DNA of 64,000 nucleotides from a virus: the IMG/VR virus record IMGVR_UViG_3300031566_000025, positions 1-64,000 of that record; one strand, 5' to 3'. The notes below the pieces were generated by a model. It ran no database searches and was not told where the DNA came from. It saw only the letters and a list, made by a program, of their open reading frames with translations. Numbering within the stretch: the first letter of the stretch is position 1; each line of letters begins with the position of its first letter. A program made the translations under genes and the position numbers. Positions 3,822-53,433 of the stretch are shown in pieces.

Positions 3822-4856
3822 ATGCTTCAAACGCACGTTGCATTTTGTATTGATGAAAGTGGTTCAGTCAGATCTATTATTGAACCATTAGTTAAAGCGT
3901 ATAATAAAACAGTCGAAGATATTAGAGATGCTGTTTTAGCTGAGGGGCAACAAGCAACCATGACCGCCCTTACATTTGGGGATATCAATGTTCAGCATAG
4001 AGTTTTATATGTTGGACAACAAGTTCAAACAGTGACCCCATTAGACCACACAGCTCTTAATCCCACTGGAATGACTCCATTATTTGATTCTGTATATCGA
4101 GCTATTAAAAAATTAGAAGAGTTGGATGATGGAAATGAAAAGACATCCCTTATTATAAATGTTGTCACTGATGGACAAGAAAATGCATCTAAAAATCCTG
4201 GAGTTCATGTAACATTAGATCTAATAGAAGAAAAAACTGCTCTTGATAGATGGACATTTGTATTTCTGGTTCCAAATGGACAATCACGTAACTTCTGTAG
4301 TAGATACAGAATTCCACCAGGAAATGTTCAGGAATGGGATGAAAAAACTGCAAAAGGAACAGAGCAGGCATTTGCTATAAGTTCTGTTGCTTACGCTGGA
4401 TATTTTAAAGAAAGATCTCGTGGTATTAGGTCTACCAAATCATTCTATTCAGATGTTAGTGATTTAACTGTAACCAAAGCAAGATCTGAATTATCAGAAA
4501 TTACCAACCAGGTTAAATTTATTAAACCATTGAAGGACTGTAACATTCGTGAATGTATAGAAAGAGCAGGAGAAGAATTTATCAAAGGTTCTGGATTCTA
4601 TCATTTAATCAAAACAGAGAAAAGAGTCCAATCATATAAATTAGTCGCTCTCAGGGTAAAGAGTTCTGGCAAGGTCTACTGTGGTCAAAAAGCTAGAGAA
4701 ATGCTTGGAATTGGTGGACTATCTGATACTGTTCGTTTAGTTCCTGGGGATCATGGCAAATTTGATGTCTTCATTCAATCAACAAGTTATAATAGAAAAA
4801 TACCAGCAAATACAGAAGTTCTTTATTGGCCAAAAGTAGGAAGTCAAAAGAAGTAA
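3822..4856 (+). CDS. von Willebrand factor A domain protein (vWA 1)
   Basis: N-terminal vWA domain (about residues 1-190) with a complete MIDAS metal site: DESGS at 11-15, the threonine in NPTGMTPLFD, and VTDGQEN. A second region (about 200-344) has no recognised family; it includes CGQKAREMLGIGGL. SD AAAGGAG precedes ATG 3822. vWA proteins usually act as metal-dependent protein-binding scaffolds. The neighbouring second vWA, PP2C and kinase genes suggest a place in a TerY-P-like phospho-signalling module. Confidence 0.8.
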   Translation: MLQTHVAFCIDESGSVRSIIEPLVKAYNKTVEDIRDAVLAEGQQATMTALTFGDINVQHRVLYVGQQVQTVTPLDHTALNPTGMTPLFDSVYRAIKKLEELDDGNEKTSLIINVVTDGQENASKNPGVHVTLDLIEEKTALDRWTFVFLVPNGQSRNFCSRYRIPPGNVQEWDEKTAKGTEQAFAISSVAYAGYFKERSRGIRSTKSFYSDVSDLTVTKARSELSEITNQVKFIKPLKDCNIRECIERAGEEFIKGSGFYHLIKTEKRVQSYKLVALRVKSSGKVYCGQKAREMLGIGGLSDTVRLVPGDHGKFDVFIQSTSYNRKIPANTEVLYWPKVGSQKK

Positions 4857-23213: not shown

Positions 23214-23522
23214 CTACTCCATATCTGTAACTATATCCTCTGTAAAAGTTTCAATAGTTTGTTCTACTTTTTCATCATTAATTTCAGGTTGCTTTATAGG
23301 AGTGACTTCTTTGGTAGGATATTCGACATCTTTTTCAACAACGATGCCAGATATATAACTAGGTCTAACTAAAACTGAAGTGTGTGAAGTTTTTACAACT
23401 GCTACTGTAGTTCCTCGCATCATATCTAGTAAGAATTTAATTGTTTCTTCTGTAGTTTGTTCATCATTATCATCTAATAATTCAATCGGACCATCTTTCG
23501 TATTTATAGTTATTCTTTTCAT
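23214..23522 (-). CDS. Hypothetical protein (102 aa) ending in TAG-TGA
   Basis: Soluble protein with an acidic tail (NDEKVEQTIETFTEDIV). It is the only gene I find in the 13.9-34.0 kb block that ends in TAG, and that TAG is followed directly by an in-frame TGA. Overlaps the preceding gene by 4 bases. No family recognised. Confidence 0.5.
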   Translation of the reverse strand: MKRITINTKDGPIELLDDNDEQTTEETIKFLLDMMRGTTVAVVKTSHTSVLVRPSYISGIVVEKDVEYPTKEVTPIKQPEINDEKVEQTIETFTEDIVTDME

Positions 23523-23907: not shown

Positions 23908-24915
23908 TTATTTATCTTCATCCTCGTCTTCTTCTTCATCCTCGTCTTCTTCTTCTTCCTCAATTTCTTCTTTAAAAAGTTTAAAAGCTTCTTCTAGATC
24001 GTCTTGATCTGAATCTTCTGCATCTGGTCCACCAGGAAATCCTGCAGCTTCTTCAACTTTTTTATCTACATCTAGATCTTTTTCTTCTTCTTCTCCACCT
24101 TCTTCTCCACCTTCTTCTCCACCTTCTTCATCTGTATCTTCTATTTCTTGCATCAATTTTTCAATTAGTTTATCTTCATTATAATTTTTTGGTTTTACCA
24201 TTTGATCGTGACGATCTTTTCTATCAGGAACTTGACCATCAGATGATCCTGTTCCAGCTTGATCTTCTCCGCCAACACCTTTGGTATCTTCCTCAGGACC
24301 TTTTGCTTTCTTTTCTTGTGGAGCATCTGGAACACCTTTGAAATCACTAGATACATTTCCATCGCTTTCTTCTACTGCTTCTTCTTCATCTCCTTCGTCT
24401 TCATCTTCATCTTCATCTTCTTCCATTTCTGAAATTAATTTTTCAATAACTGCATTTTCTACTTCTTCTGACAAATCTACATCTGCTGATTCGTCAGTGT
24501 ACTTTTTCTTCTTGGGAACATCATCGTCATCCCATTCTTTCTCACTAACCATCCCTTCTTTAGCAATGTCTTTACCTTTTTCATCTTTGGAAGCTGGAAT
24601 TGTAGCAGCATCACTTGTTCCTGCTTGTTCCTCTCCACCCGGTCCTTCTGTATGTTCGGAACCAGCTTTTGATTTTACACCCTTATCATTTTCATAATCA
24701 GACTCGGAAACTTCCACACCTTTCTCTCGCTTCTCATTGAAGTAATACCTTTCGAGAACACTTGCAGCATCCTTATAAGTGGGTAGTTCGCCATCGCCTT
24801 CATACGACAAAATCGGGTCCAACATCGGACCTTTGACATCTACATTATTTGACGTATCAAATTCACTAATAGCTTCTTTTAATAACTGTTGATATGATAC
24901 AACTTTTTTGCTCAT
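23908..24915 (-). CDS. Highly acidic core/scaffold-like protein
   Basis: 335 residues dominated by Glu/Asp runs (e.g. EMEEDEDEDEDEGDEEE) with a partly ordered N-terminal ~60 residues. Two diverged internal repeats share GGE(E/D)QAGT followed by P..KD. Extreme acidity and position at the head of the structural operon suggest a prohead core or scaffold, possibly processed by the gp21-like protease. It is the first gene after a candidate promoter at 24967. Confidence 0.55.
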   Translation of the reverse strand: MSKKVVSYQQLLKEAISEFDTSNNVDVKGPMLDPILSYEGDGELPTYKDAASVLERYYFNEKREKGVEVSESDYENDKGVKSKAGSEHTEGPGGEEQAGTSDAATIPASKDEKGKDIAKEGMVSEKEWDDDDVPKKKKYTDESADVDLSEEVENAVIEKLISEMEEDEDEDEDEGDEEEAVEESDGNVSSDFKGVPDAPQEKKAKGPEEDTKGVGGEDQAGTGSSDGQVPDRKDRHDQMVKPKNYNEDKLIEKLMQEIEDTDEEGGEEGGEEGGEEEEKDLDVDKKVEEAAGFPGGPDAEDSDQDDLEEAFKLFKEEIEEEEEDEDEEEDEDEDK

Positions 24916-47756: not shown

Positions 47757-47999
47757 ATGAAAAACCCATGTGACATATGCATTTGTAAGGTAATATGTAC
47801 TGAAATATGTCCAGAAAAAGAAAACTATCTAACATTAATTAAAAATGCTATTATCCAAAATTCTTATTCAAAAAGAGGAATTCGAATACCAAAAAATGAT
47901 AATTTTAGAAAATATCTTGAAATGCAACAACAACATTTCAAAGATACAGCGAAAATCAATGTGAGAAATTATAAGAAGAGGGGAGGAATGATTTCATGA
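47757..47999 (+). CDS. Small Cys-motif protein (80 aa)
   Basis: N-terminus CDICICKVICTEICPEKE: five closely spaced cysteines, like a small metal or Fe-S binding motif seen in several tiny phage proteins. SD GAAGGA. Its stop overlaps the RtcB start. Possibly a partner of RtcB (inference from coupling only). Confidence 0.55.
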   Translation: MKNPCDICICKVICTEICPEKENYLTLIKNAIIQNSYSKRGIRIPKNDNFRKYLEMQQQHFKDTAKINVRNYKKRGGMIS

Positions 48000-49195
48000 T
48001 CCCGTATCAAGGAAAATATGGAAAAGCTTCTGTAATGCTTAACGAACTAAACGATCAGAATACTATTAGTCAGATATATGAATTTTTAAATCATCCAGCA
48101 TTTACAAATCCAATTGCTATCATGCCAGATTGTCATTATGGAAAGGGTGCTGTAATTGGATTTACAATGGAAATGACTGATATGATTATTCCAAATATAG
48201 TCGGGGTCGATATTAATTGTGGTATGCTTTCTCTATTTCTTGGACCCAATGCTTTAGAAAAATTAACTATCGAACAAATTGATCAGAAAATAAGACAAAA
48301 GATTCCCTTATCAAAACATGTCCATCAAGAAGTAACATTATCTCATCATATGCTAGACAATTATTTTTGGAAACATGCAAGCTATAATCACAAACATTTT
48401 ACCTTACAATATAATAAACGATATGGAACCAAATATGATCCATTTAAATTTGATATTGATTGGTTTGAAGATAAATGCAAACAAATCAAAATGGATTTTA
48501 CAAGAGCTTTATCATCTATTGGAACCTTGGGAGGCGGAAACCATTTTTTAGAACTGGGTAAATTAGTCAATCGAAAAGAATACCTTTTCACAATCCATTC
48601 AGGATCAAGACAATTTGGATTGAAAGTTTGTGATTACTGGCAACGAAAAGCTGGAAAAGGTCATTTAGCATATTTGACCGGAGATGATATGTTTGGTTAT
48701 CTTACAGATATGGTATTTACCCAAATATATGCACAAACAAATAGAGAAGCAATGGCAACGATCATTGAACGTATTTTTGATATTCAATCTTATAAGACGA
48801 TTGAAACATGCCATAACTTTATAAGTATTCAAGATTTTATTATTCGCAAAGGTGCAATAGCTTCTTATAAGGAACATCAGATGATCATTCCATTAAACAT
48901 GGAAGATGGTTTATTAATATGTGAAGGAAAATCAAATCCAGAATGGAATTATTCAGCTCCCCACGGAGCAGGAAGAATTAGTTCAAGATCTAGTATTAAA
49001 AGAAAAATGAAAGAAAAATCATCCGCTGAAATTGTTCAAGAACGAATGAAAGAGAAAGGAATATACATATCAGTAGTTCCATTGGATGAAACAAAAGAAG
49101 CATATAAAGATCCAAAACTAATTGAAGATACTATTGACCCAACTGCATCAATTATTGATCGTGTAATGCCTGTGCTCAATATTAAAGCAATTTAA
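47996..49195 (+). CDS. rtcB: RNA-splicing ligase RtcB
   Basis: 399 residues. Family motifs: MPDCHYGKG (43-51), GVDINCGM with metal ligands Asp72 and Cys75, GTLGGGNHFLE, IHSGSRQFG and APHGAGR containing the histidine that takes GMP. RtcB joins 2',3'-cyclic phosphate and 5'-OH RNA ends with GTP. Within a phage tRNA array the obvious job is resealing tRNAs cut by host anticodon nucleases. Confidence 0.92.
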   Translation: MIPYQGKYGKASVMLNELNDQNTISQIYEFLNHPAFTNPIAIMPDCHYGKGAVIGFTMEMTDMIIPNIVGVDINCGMLSLFLGPNALEKLTIEQIDQKIRQKIPLSKHVHQEVTLSHHMLDNYFWKHASYNHKHFTLQYNKRYGTKYDPFKFDIDWFEDKCKQIKMDFTRALSSIGTLGGGNHFLELGKLVNRKEYLFTIHSGSRQFGLKVCDYWQRKAGKGHLAYLTGDDMFGYLTDMVFTQIYAQTNREAMATIIERIFDIQSYKTIETCHNFISIQDFIIRKGAIASYKEHQMIIPLNMEDGLLICEGKSNPEWNYSAPHGAGRISSRSSIKRKMKEKSSAEIVQERMKEKGIYISVVPLDETKEAYKDPKLIEDTIDPTASIIDRVMPVLNIKAI

Positions 49196-49671: not shown

Positions 49672-49800
49672 ATGAATGATAAAGCTGTAAATCTAATTCA
49701 TTAGGTTTACACCAATCCACCGTAGAGTTGTAGAGGTCCCCCCAGTTGTTTTCATTCAAATAATAACTTTAACTTTGAACTGAAAACAAAAAGGGGAATA
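49672..49800 (+). promoter_or_regulatory. Leader-peptide-like mini-ORF and hairpins
   Basis: AAAGGAG then ATG 49672 opens a 10-codon frame (MNDKAVNLIH) ending at 49704, whose end lies in a hairpin (GTAAATCTAAT/ATTAGGTTTAC). A second stem GTTTTCA/TGAAAAC follows, then the SD of the next gene. The layout resembles an attenuation or translational-control leader, but the peptide has no obvious codon bias. Confidence 0.4.
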
Positions 49801-49805
49801 AAACA

Positions 49806-50177
49806 ATGACACGAAAAGAATTGAAGAATAAAATAAAAGAAGAACAAAAATTATTAGCAATCAAAATTAAAAGAGGAAAGTTTCTTAATAAACCTAGTCA
49901 TAGAGAAAATATGACTGAGGAAGAAAAAGAATTCTATATCTCAATTTATGATGGAATATCACATTTCAAAGATTGGAAAGTTGGACAATTAAGTCATGAG
50001 TATCGTCATAAACATATCATCTATTGTCAAATGTTTAACAATACTCCTTATGAAAAAATTGAACACCCAAGAGTCAGTAATAAACCCACTCCCCAACATC
50101 TAAAACTTTATAAAGAACGATGGGAAGTGATACTTTGGGAAGCACAACGTGATGAAGCTTTACATAATAATACGTAA
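49806..50177 (+). CDS. Hypothetical protein (123 aa)
   Basis: Basic, helical protein (ELKNKIKEEQKLLAIKIKRG, LSHEYRHKHIIYCQMF). It resembles a type of small phage protein often next to tRNA or Pth2-like genes; no named family. Overlaps the next gene. Confidence 0.5.
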   Translation: MTRKELKNKIKEEQKLLAIKIKRGKFLNKPSHRENMTEEEKEFYISIYDGISHFKDWKVGQLSHEYRHKHIIYCQMFNNTPYEKIEHPRVSNKPTPQHLKLYKERWEVILWEAQRDEALHNNT

Positions 50178-50442
50178 AGATTTATCAATTTCACAAAGGG
50201 CAGTGCAGGCAGGACATGCTGTAGCGGAGTTTTGTCTGCGCGGTCCTATCTCGAGTTGGTCTAATGGAACTCTAATCTACTTGGGGGTTAGAAACTTAAA
50301 TCAACTTGAAAAATTAATGTATCAACTTAATAATGAAAATATTAGATATATCGAATTTCGTGAACCTGACTTATATAATCAAGTAACAGCAATAGCAACT
50401 GATCAACACTGTGAAATTTTTGAAAGGATAAGATTATTATGA
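50152..50442 (+). CDS. Peptidyl-tRNA hydrolase 2-like protein
   Basis: 96 residues (GTG 50149 is an alternative start). KLYIIIRKDLSISQRAVQAG followed by HAVAEF aligns with the Pth2 start (DL..GK.aaQ.aHA), though Lys of the GK is replaced. Family members hydrolyse peptidyl-tRNA; phage and bacterial homologues may act on other tRNA conjugates. Adjacent to RtcB, fitting a tRNA-maintenance set. Confidence 0.65.
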   Translation: MKLYIIIRKDLSISQRAVQAGHAVAEFCLRGPISSWSNGTLIYLGVRNLNQLEKLMYQLNNENIRYIEFREPDLYNQVTAIATDQHCEIFERIRLL

Positions 50443-50717
50443 TTAAACTTGGAGAAAAAAGAATCAATCCTAACAATATAATTAAATATTATCCAGAACT
50501 AGAAAACTCTATTAAATTTGAATTAGTTAATGGCAAATCTGAAAGTATCTTTTTTAGACATCAGCAAGAACGAGATGAAATGTTAAAAATGCTAGATGAT
50601 TATCTGGTATTTTTTGACAACGGAATACTGAAGGGAATACGAGATCAAAATTTGCCATCATTTATTATTAATGATACAGACAAAGGATACGGTCCAGGCG
50701 GAATACCAATGCAATAA
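50439..50717 (+). CDS. Hypothetical protein (92 aa)
   Basis: ATGA-type overlap with the Pth2-like gene. Beta-alpha small domain (IIKYYPELENSIKFELVNGK) with a Gly-rich C-terminus (GYGPGGIPMQ). No family recognised. Confidence 0.5.
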   Translation: MIKLGEKRINPNNIIKYYPELENSIKFELVNGKSESIFFRHQQERDEMLKMLDDYLVFFDNGILKGIRDQNLPSFIINDTDKGYGPGGIPMQ

Positions 50718-50725
50718 AATTTAGT

Positions 50726-50803
50726 GGTCCAGTAGCTCCAGTGGTTAGAGCAGGAAACTCTAAATTTCCGTTTGCGAGGGTTCGAATCCCTCCTGGACCA
50801 CCA
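50726..50803 (+). tRNA. Amber-suppressor-type tRNA (anticodon CUA)
   Basis: Acceptor GGTCCAG/CTGGACC, D-stem GCTC/GAGC, anticodon stem GGAAA/TTTCC with loop CTCTAAA giving CUA, T-arm GAGGG/CCCTC, A73, encoded CCA. All stems are perfect. The loop differs from tRNA-Trp (CTCCAAA) by one base. It would read UAG codons; which amino acid it carries cannot be told from sequence alone. Confidence 0.9.
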
Positions 50804-52059: not shown

Positions 52060-53433
52060 ATGTTCATCCCCAACAACATAAATCTTCTATATATAGAAGA
52101 TGATGAGGAAAATGCAAATCTTATTCTGTCATTTTTAAAATTATCTGAATATACAAAATTTAATACAACTCATAAAAGTACATTAGAACAAGGTTTAGAC
52201 TATATTACAGATAACTGTATTTCTACTTGTAATAACACTTGTAAAACTCAAAATATTGAAAACTGTGGAACAGATGTTATTTTATTAGATCTAGTTTTAC
52301 AAAATAGTCGAGGAGTTGATACATATAAATCAGTTTTAGAAAAATGCCCCTGTATTCCAATTGTTATCATATCTGGATATGAACAAATGGCATATGAATG
52401 TGTTAAACTAGGAGCTCAAGACTATTTAGTAAAACCCCATATTAATCCAGGTTTAATTATCAGATCATTGGTATATGCAATTGAAAGAAATAATCTAGAA
52501 AACTCAAAAATACAAGCTGAAAAGAAATTTAGAGAAGTTATTTATGCAACTCCAATTGGTTTTCATAATTATGAACTAAAAGAAGAAGATCTAATATTTA
52601 TAGGTTATAATCCAGCAGCAGATCGAATACTAAAAATTGATCATAAACAATTATTAGGAAAAACAATTGATCAAGCATTTCCCTCTCTAACTAAAATGAA
52701 AATTCCTGAAAAATATAAAATAGTTGCAAAAACAGGCAAACCATGGGAATCACAAATTTTAGAATACGAAGACCATAATATTAAAAAAGCTTATTTTAAA
52801 ATACATGCATTTAGAACATACCCTGGTTCTATAACCTCTTCATTTGAGGATATTACAGAGCAAATAATAGCAACAGAAAAACTAGAATATAGTGAAAAAA
52901 GATTTAGAAACCTAGTTGAAATAACAGGTGCAGGAATATATGAAATAGATCTCACTAATGGAAAATTTACTTATGTAAATCATGTTATGTGTAAACAAAC
53001 TGGATATACTAAAGAAGAACTTTTTGAAATTGGACCTTCTGGACTTTTAACTCAAAAAAGCTATCTTGACTGGGTTGATAGATGGGAAAGATTTACTGAT
53101 CCAGAATATATTAATGGAGGAGCTTATGATGGTCCATTTCAATATGAAGCTATTGCAAAAGATGGTTCTCATCTTTGGTCATTAGTTATAGCAGAATTTG
53201 TAATGGATAAAAATAAAAATATAACCAAAGCAAATGTTGTTGCTATTGATATAACGAAACAAAAATTAATAGAATCTCAATTAAAGAAAAAAGAAGATAT
53301 TATATTCAATCAATTAGAAGATAAAATACATCAATGGAGGGATGAAATAACCGAAAGATCTTCAGTTGAATTTCAAAAATTAAAAGACATGGACAATAAA
53401 ATAATATCCATTAGTAATCAAATTGTGGAGTAA
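52060..53433 (+). CDS. REC-PAS-PAS response-regulator-like protein
   Basis: 457 residues. Receiver domain (5-145): EDDEE acidic pocket, phosphoacceptor Asp77 in ILLDLV, VIISGYE with the conserved Ser, and Lys in YLVKPH. Four cysteines sit in a loop before Asp77 (C53, C57, C61, C69). Two PAS domains follow (~160-275 and ~285-410, e.g. VMCKQTGYTKEELFEIGPSG) and a C-terminal helix. No kinase, GGDEF or HTH output domain. It would bind or intercept host phospho-signalling. Confidence 0.85.
   Translation: MFIPNNINLLYIEDDEENANLILSFLKLSEYTKFNTTHKSTLEQGLDYITDNCISTCNNTCKTQNIENCGTDVILLDLVLQNSRGVDTYKSVLEKCPCIPIVIISGYEQMAYECVKLGAQDYLVKPHINPGLIIRSLVYAIERNNLENSKIQAEKKFREVIYATPIGFHNYELKEEDLIFIGYNPAADRILKIDHKQLLGKTIDQAFPSLTKMKIPEKYKIVAKTGKPWESQILEYEDHNIKKAYFKIHAFRTYPGSITSSFEDITEQIIATEKLEYSEKRFRNLVEITGAGIYEIDLTNGKFTYVNHVMCKQTGYTKEELFEIGPSGLLTQKSYLDWVDRWERFTDPEYINGGAYDGPFQYEAIAKDGSHLWSLVIAEFVMDKNKNITKANVVAIDITKQKLIESQLKKKEDIIFNQLEDKIHQWRDEITERSSVEFQKLKDMDNKIISISNQIVE

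Follow-up and report, generated by a model that had tools for sequence, protein, structure and literature searches.

Genome comparison shows that a tRNA with anticodon CUA, which reads the amber codon UAG, is specifically linked to two small protein genes, PTH2L (peptidyl-tRNA-hydrolase-2-like) and X. The three genes lie on one strand in the order X - PTH2L - tRNA(CUA), forming a module that probably moves horizontally. We lean towards the reading that the module holds a working amber-decoding tRNA and that PTH2L limits this suppressor or cleans up after it. In the window, which is the whole stretch of 64,000 bases analysed here from a virus fragment of 64,297 bases, the genes of the module and others around them are as follows.

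47996-49195: RtcB-type RNA ligase within the tRNA array (E 3.7e-100 against the PHROG tRNA splicing ligase)
49806..50177, plus strand: gene X, encoding an uncharacterised protein of 123 aa and overlapping the start of PTH2L with its 3' end
50152..50442, plus strand: PTH2L, 96 aa (a GTG start is possible at 50149)
50439..50717, plus strand: ORF Y, 92 aa, between PTH2L and the tRNA; recognised by position only
50726..50803, plus strand: tRNA with anticodon CUA, recognised by ARAGORN, Rfam, stem pairing and covariation
52060-53433: protein of 457 aa with response-regulator and PAS domains, within the tRNA array

The CUA tRNA in the window and its clade

The window belongs to a T4-like phage, in which profiles of DNA polymerase, portal, capsid and DnaB-like helicase were matched. 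Close relatives were not found in the annotated phage collection, and relatives were gathered from IMG/VR by a search with the capsid protein, which recovered 24. Twenty relative records, whole or nearly whole and joined from adjacent tiles, make up a 21-record clade together with the window. The late genes of the window phage lie beyond the fragment, and the relatives were used in their place. Eight of the 21 records carry a CUA tRNA (G000, G001, G008, G011, G014, G015, G021 and G023), and four of these eight genomes exceed 200 kb; some of the records without it are only short pieces, and G010 nearly duplicates G011 in truncated form. Genes for ribosome rescue recur in the clade. Genes for tmRNA occur in the tRNA-rich relatives G001, G008, G010/G011, G021 and G023, with tags such as ADDYYTEVALAA, and none was detected in the window. 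Open frames of 119-147 aa with an RF-1 domain, an ArfB-like size, are present in G008, G011 and G022. The window has no match to PF00472 or PF00579, that is, to a phage RF1/RF2 or a Trp/Tyr-type synthetase.

ARAGORN found 25 tRNAs in the window, one of them with anticodon CUA. This array (38581-60564) has no tRNAs for Val, Tyr or Trp; those for Tyr and Trp are also missing in G001 and G023, and both are present in G008, G011 and G021. The initial annotation described the CUA tRNA as clean, with perfect stems, and this was confirmed: ARAGORN places it at 50726-50803, Rfam RF00005 matches 50726-50800 with 57.3 bits (E 1e-9), pairing is complete in each of the four stems, and CUCUAAA forms the anticodon loop. 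The tRNA belongs to class I, its CCA end is encoded and its discriminator is A73; the canonical tRNA fold with a CUA anticodon was confirmed. The 'Pyl' label given by ARAGORN reflects the anticodon only and does not imply PylRS/tRNA-Pyl features; the anticodon stem is an ordinary one of 5 bp, and the D arm is also ordinary.

Could this tRNA be a decayed one, for example a tRNA-Trp whose CCA anticodon changed to CUA, surviving without function by chance in a large array? It is 77% identical to the tRNA-Trp of G008, its loop differs by one base from the CUCCAAA of Trp, and tRNA-Trp is absent from the window. However, the eight divergent CUA tRNAs (the window and seven relatives) keep both the CUA anticodon and the stems, with 97% of stem cells paired and 17 of 21 stem pairs altered on both sides by compensatory change. 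Covariation among them is 0.755, against 0.274 when shuffled and at most 0.202 when slid. Furthermore, seven of the eight cluster even when the anticodon is masked, in one group that holds 18 of the 156 tRNAs, the masked tree placing the CUA tRNAs of G000 and G001 as sisters (support 0.93), and the linkage with PTH2L recurs in dozens of phages. Decay is thus a very improbable explanation, and these comparisons show the CUA tRNA to be real and under structural selection.

Linkage of the tRNA to PTH2L and X

PTH2L matches the Pfam family PF01981 (PTH2) with 23.1 bits, against a cut-off of 23. Its AlphaFold2 model has a pLDDT of 95.1, is matched by Foldseek to MJ0051 (E about 1e-5), and is superposed by VIA-align on the Pth2 AF2095 (3erj, Z 13.6) and on human Bit1 (1q7s, Z 13.4). 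The Pth2 fold is thus a high-confidence prediction for PTH2L. PTH2L shares this fold with archaeal and eukaryotic Pth2, and the Q-x-x-H motif and the C-terminal D...T region are conserved, the Q and H being retained in the alignment with MJ0051 and AF2095. In contrast to Pth2, PTH2L is shorter at 96 aa, has EPDxxN in place of DAGxTQ, and has S-Q-Q/R where Pth2 is Lys-rich ahead of its AAQ motif. Its catalytic activity is uncertain. Three clade members have a separate canonical PTH2 gene in addition.

G001, 82295-82690: canonical PTH2, directly 5' of tRNA-Lys(UUU)
G023, 156774-157163: canonical PTH2, directly 5' of tRNA-Lys(UUU)
G013, 24401-24775: canonical PTH2, near tRNA-Ala

X proteins are about 100 aa long; the X of the window has the motif RHxHIAYCxxRGRTxEQIE, and an HMM of 24 homologues matches the window at 49779-50174 (E 1.5e-18). 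X is predicted to be all-helical (AlphaFold2 pLDDT 96); it has no fold match in the PDB, no profile hit and no Pfam family above cut-off. At locus L199, X and PTH2L are matched within one ORF. X seems to hold an in-frame TAG at another locus (L221, 162-326), where no CUA tRNA lies in the 4 kb downstream. An ORF stands at the same place as Y in G001 and G023 and is absent from compact modules; Y has no Pfam match.

Within the clade, PTH2L is present in all eight records with the CUA tRNA and in none of the 13 without it (Fisher 5e-6; some of the latter are fragments), and it always shares the strand of the tRNA and lies on its 5' side, with a gap of 0 to about 770 nt. X shows the same distribution, occurring in all eight genomes that have the tRNA and nowhere else in the clade. 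Searching IMG/VR with the eight PTH2L proteins of the clade gave 67 loci. The CUA tRNA is present at 57 of them, always downstream of PTH2L on its strand, and at many it is the sole tRNA; X is present at 53. Dereplication, in which identical proteins and loci with less than 700 nt downstream were dropped, left 61 loci. The first downstream tRNA has anticodon CUA at 52 of these and another anticodon at none, while nine have no tRNA. The gap between PTH2L and the CUA tRNA has a median of 79 nt and is often 4-16 nt. By comparison, CUA accounts for 8 of the 217 tRNAs of the clade. Judged from these counts, chance pairing of PTH2L with the CUA tRNA is out of the question, although the loci are not fully independent.

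In a second scan, other PTH2L members served as queries; it kept 80 of 228 relatives and yielded at least 33 new distinct contigs, three rows with shifted ends being left out as repeats. The CUA tRNA lies within 2.5 kb of PTH2L in 31 of the 33, and 5' of it at four loci. In RAS14, LR756511, L275 and L276, the CUA tRNA is elsewhere in the record or was missed by ARAGORN. Two loci found by the CUA-tRNA pattern alone, outside the PTH2L set, also carry PTH2L (L197 and L199), and five have a CUA tRNA with no recognisable PTH2L nearby (L191, L194, L195, L196 and L198). Named phages also show the pairing: a CTA tRNA adjoins PTH2L in Acinetobacter phage ME3, tRNA-Sup lies 2.6 kb from PTH2L in Tenacibaculum phage pT24, and XacN1 has a PTH2L homologue (ORF364) and four CUA tRNA matches. 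Phages CBB and Summit were absent among the PTH2L matches. In bacterial genomes, PTH2L was found on two contigs only, both without the tRNA.

UAG as terminator in the clade and in frame within PTH2L

The initial annotation proposed stage-specific read-through or recoding of TAG, possibly in late genes outside the window. Recoding would be of the code-15 type known from crAss-like and Lak phages. Besides the CUA tRNA itself, the rarity of TAG in one block of the window speaks for such recoding. Our count agrees with that of the annotation: the block at 13.8-34.1 kb has 17 TAA, 5 TGA and one TAG, the last at 23214 and directly followed by an in-frame TGA, with 23 genes called where the annotation had 24. 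Its statement that TAG ends about a dozen small genes elsewhere also holds, with 16 further called ORFs ending in TAG outside the block. The shortage in the block (13.9-34 kb) was rejected as evidence, being near chance (P=0.054 for at most one TAG in 24 stops at a rate of 18%) and not shared by the orthologues, which end in TAG in 16.5% of cases in relatives with the CUA tRNA and in 19.7% in those without it.

Further observations on the clade stand against recoding. In the genomes with the CUA tRNA, gene ends coincide with those of homologues for 74% of TAG ends, compared with 79% for TAA and 76% for TGA. None of the unshadowed TAGs in the eight genomes is spanned by a homologous called gene. 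A looser spanning test gave the same apparent rate for TAG, TAA and TGA, as is expected from in-frame neighbours. TAG usage relative to background is not rarer in these genomes, a back-up second stop behind TAG is not commoner (36% vs 33%), no conserved extension beyond TAG was seen in the four testable ortholog pairs, and coding density shows no gain specific to TAG read-through in the clade. Three weak cases of a TAG with a 'longer homologue' in G008 and G011 were discarded as small paralogous genes or weak matches. By these measures, TAG is an ordinary terminator in the CUA-bearing relatives, and genome-wide recoding is rejected. Late-gene read-through is not supported either. For the clade, recoding, whether complete or in late genes, is refuted; only late genes of the window phage that differ from those of its relatives could still rescue it, and we give it next to no probability. 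The TAG-recoding Lak phages, which also have PTH2L beside a UUA tRNA, are a further point in its favour.

L201 (Prevotella phage Lak-B4), 3341-3413: UUA (ochre) tRNA, with PTH2L about 0.7 kb 3'
L202 (Prevotella phage Lak-A1), 3233-3305: UUA (ochre) tRNA, with PTH2L about 0.7 kb 3'

No gene with sequence conserved across an in-frame TAG was found in the window and clade, the outcome that the initial annotation had named as counting against its reading. The wider module family does contain such a gene, and it is the linked PTH2-like gene rather than a structural or lysis gene. A single internal stop occurs in 9 of the 67 PTH2L genes, and it is TAG in all nine and never TAA or TGA. The second set added two more, both TAG, giving 11 of about 95 genes; the chance of 11 out of 11 being TAG is 2e-7 to 6e-6 at a TAG share of 25-33%. 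In each of the first nine cases, the alignment of 47-50 homologues continues through the stop, and identity is high before and after it. By parsimony on the PTH2L tree, these nine UAGs are nine independent events. Most of the UAGs lie in a variable loop before an invariant Trp. The CUA tRNA was detected at 10 of the 11 loci, the exception, L242, ending about 1.2 kb away at the contig end; at L270, the TAG is at 4094 and the tRNA starts 7 nt past the PTH2L gene. No amino acid identity is predicted for the tRNA, as the residues at positions homologous to the UAG vary; the discriminator base of the CUA tRNAs also varies (U, G, A, C).

The in-frame UAGs appear confined to PTH2L. No convincing in-frame TAG in other genes was found in 47,655 homologue-covered codons at the 67 loci, nor in 4,173 such codons in the flanking genes of the nine UAG loci, and the enrichment of TAG in PTH2L is significant (Fisher 2e-9). 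The few stop-spanning cases in other genes are artefactual and, unlike PTH2L, do not have high identity on both sides. No UAG target besides PTH2L was found. Long genes of the UAG-bearing phages were also checked for their code. In-frame TAG is absent from the helicase and ribonucleotide reductase of G035, G036 and G040, the reductase of G038, the terminase and helicase of G041, the polymerase, terminase and helicase of G042, and the polymerase of G034. Lak controls have several TAGs, up to six per gene, with five to six in the terminase. Six UAG-bearing phages are clear in this check, and G037, G039, G043 and G044 are poorly covered. Six of the phages with a UAG in PTH2L are thus assigned to the standard code, because their long genes have no in-frame TAG. 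The DNA polymerase gene on the contig of L223 (G034:C1:1877-4411) has one in-frame TGA.

The CUA tRNAs of at least the UAG-bearing modules would have to be charged and to read UAG, since otherwise PTH2L would have been broken 11 times, and by this one stop only. Comparison of genes thus provides evolutionary evidence for the reading of UAG by such tRNAs in phages that keep the standard code.

A possible amber-suppression module and known systems

The linkage and the in-frame UAGs come from sequence, and the biochemistry is what we infer from them. In the mechanism we propose, the CUA tRNA would be charged by a host synthetase and would compete with release factor 1 at UAG, giving partial suppression. 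Where PTH2L contains a UAG, its synthesis would require the tRNA of the same module. The most likely substrate of PTH2L is the suppressor tRNA in its acyl or peptidyl form, or else peptidyl-tRNAs arising from read-through and drop-off. Such action would cap suppression or relieve its cost, keeping TAG usable as a stop, and with a UAG in the PTH2L gene the loop would adjust itself. Translation of X, whose gene overlaps PTH2L, is probably coupled to that of PTH2L; X may be its partner or its regulator. The PTH2L of the window has no in-frame UAG, and therefore the loop is not closed by that means there. The same is true of about 88% of PTH2L genes, so that control by UAG is not general. Tolerance, and not selection, could account for the in-frame UAGs, since PTH2L travels with its suppressor.

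PTH2L is paired specifically with the CUA tRNA, which suggests that this tRNA is what it handles. The main rival is neutral co-travel, in which the tRNA suppresses amber codons and PTH2L is functionally untied to it, serving general rescue of peptidyl-tRNA after host-defence cleavage of tRNAs. The PTH2 of jumbo phages has been proposed to rescue peptidyl-tRNAs on damaged tRNAs (PMC7824862), and that discussion takes the rescue view with suppressors unmentioned. The RtcB-type ligase near the module in the window, whose place in the tRNA array is consistent with repair of cleaved tRNAs, the tmRNA and small RF-1-domain genes of the relatives, and the location of the UAGs in tolerant loops also agree with it. 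However, co-travel leaves unexplained both the exclusive pairing with CUA (52 of 52) and the persistence of the module in phages that have no other tRNA at the locus, and we regard it as rather unlikely.

Another possibility is tRNA-guided termination, in which the CUA tRNA reads UAG and PTH2L hydrolyses peptidyl-tRNA(CUA), the pair substituting for release factor 1. That TAG remains a true terminator in phages with the CUA tRNA would fit this, as would the Pth2 fold and the strict pairing. The UAGs inside PTH2L, however, demand read-through and not termination, and the substrate of Pth enzymes is free peptidyl-tRNA and not peptidyl-tRNA on the ribosome. Substitution for release factor 1 is accordingly improbable.

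Amber suppression by a module that includes PTH2L can be compared with several known systems. Orphan CUA suppressor tRNAs were reported several times in jumbo and other phages of the standard code, among them XacN1 (PMC5852040) and Summit (PMC9022506), for which in silico read-through yielded no target gene (PMC5852040, PMC9022506). The CUA tRNA of XacN1 is 78% identical to that of the window, and XacN1 also has PTH2L, as noted above. Those suppressors were described alone, whereas here the tRNA has the partners X and PTH2L and, in some members, a UAG target. TAG recoding is known in Lak phages (PMC6784885). Code-15 phages (crAss-like and Lak) resemble the present case in encoding a stop-decoding tRNA; in them, however, TAG is sense in many genes, whereas here TAG stays a stop and in-frame UAGs occur only in PTH2L. 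Theta ribozyme-linked suppressor tRNAs of gut phages (PMC10879173) likewise have a dedicated element tied to the phage suppressor tRNA. That element is an RNA processing element found mostly in recoded phages, and an Rfam scan of the window gave tRNAs only. No link of suppressor tRNAs to a PTH2-like gene or to X was found in open-access papers.

We tentatively propose, as a possibility, that X - PTH2L - tRNA(CUA) is an undescribed mobile module for self-limiting amber suppression, in which PTH2L is both sensor and brake. Such a module would let phages of the standard code, perhaps in transition towards recoding or away from it, exploit UAG read-through with their genomes unrecoded. For the target-less suppressor tRNAs of standard-code phages the linkage supplies a partner that is conserved and, one gene away in 11 phages, a UAG-containing target. 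It seems that these puzzling tRNAs belong to a dedicated read-through module and do not signal whole-genome recoding, and the question is testable with two or three small genes. If the proposal is true, the module would be a natural, self-contained amber-suppression circuit, which could be useful in genetic code expansion. It may also show how phages tolerate a stop-decoding tRNA and move towards recoding, as the recoded Lak phages share the PTH2-like gene.
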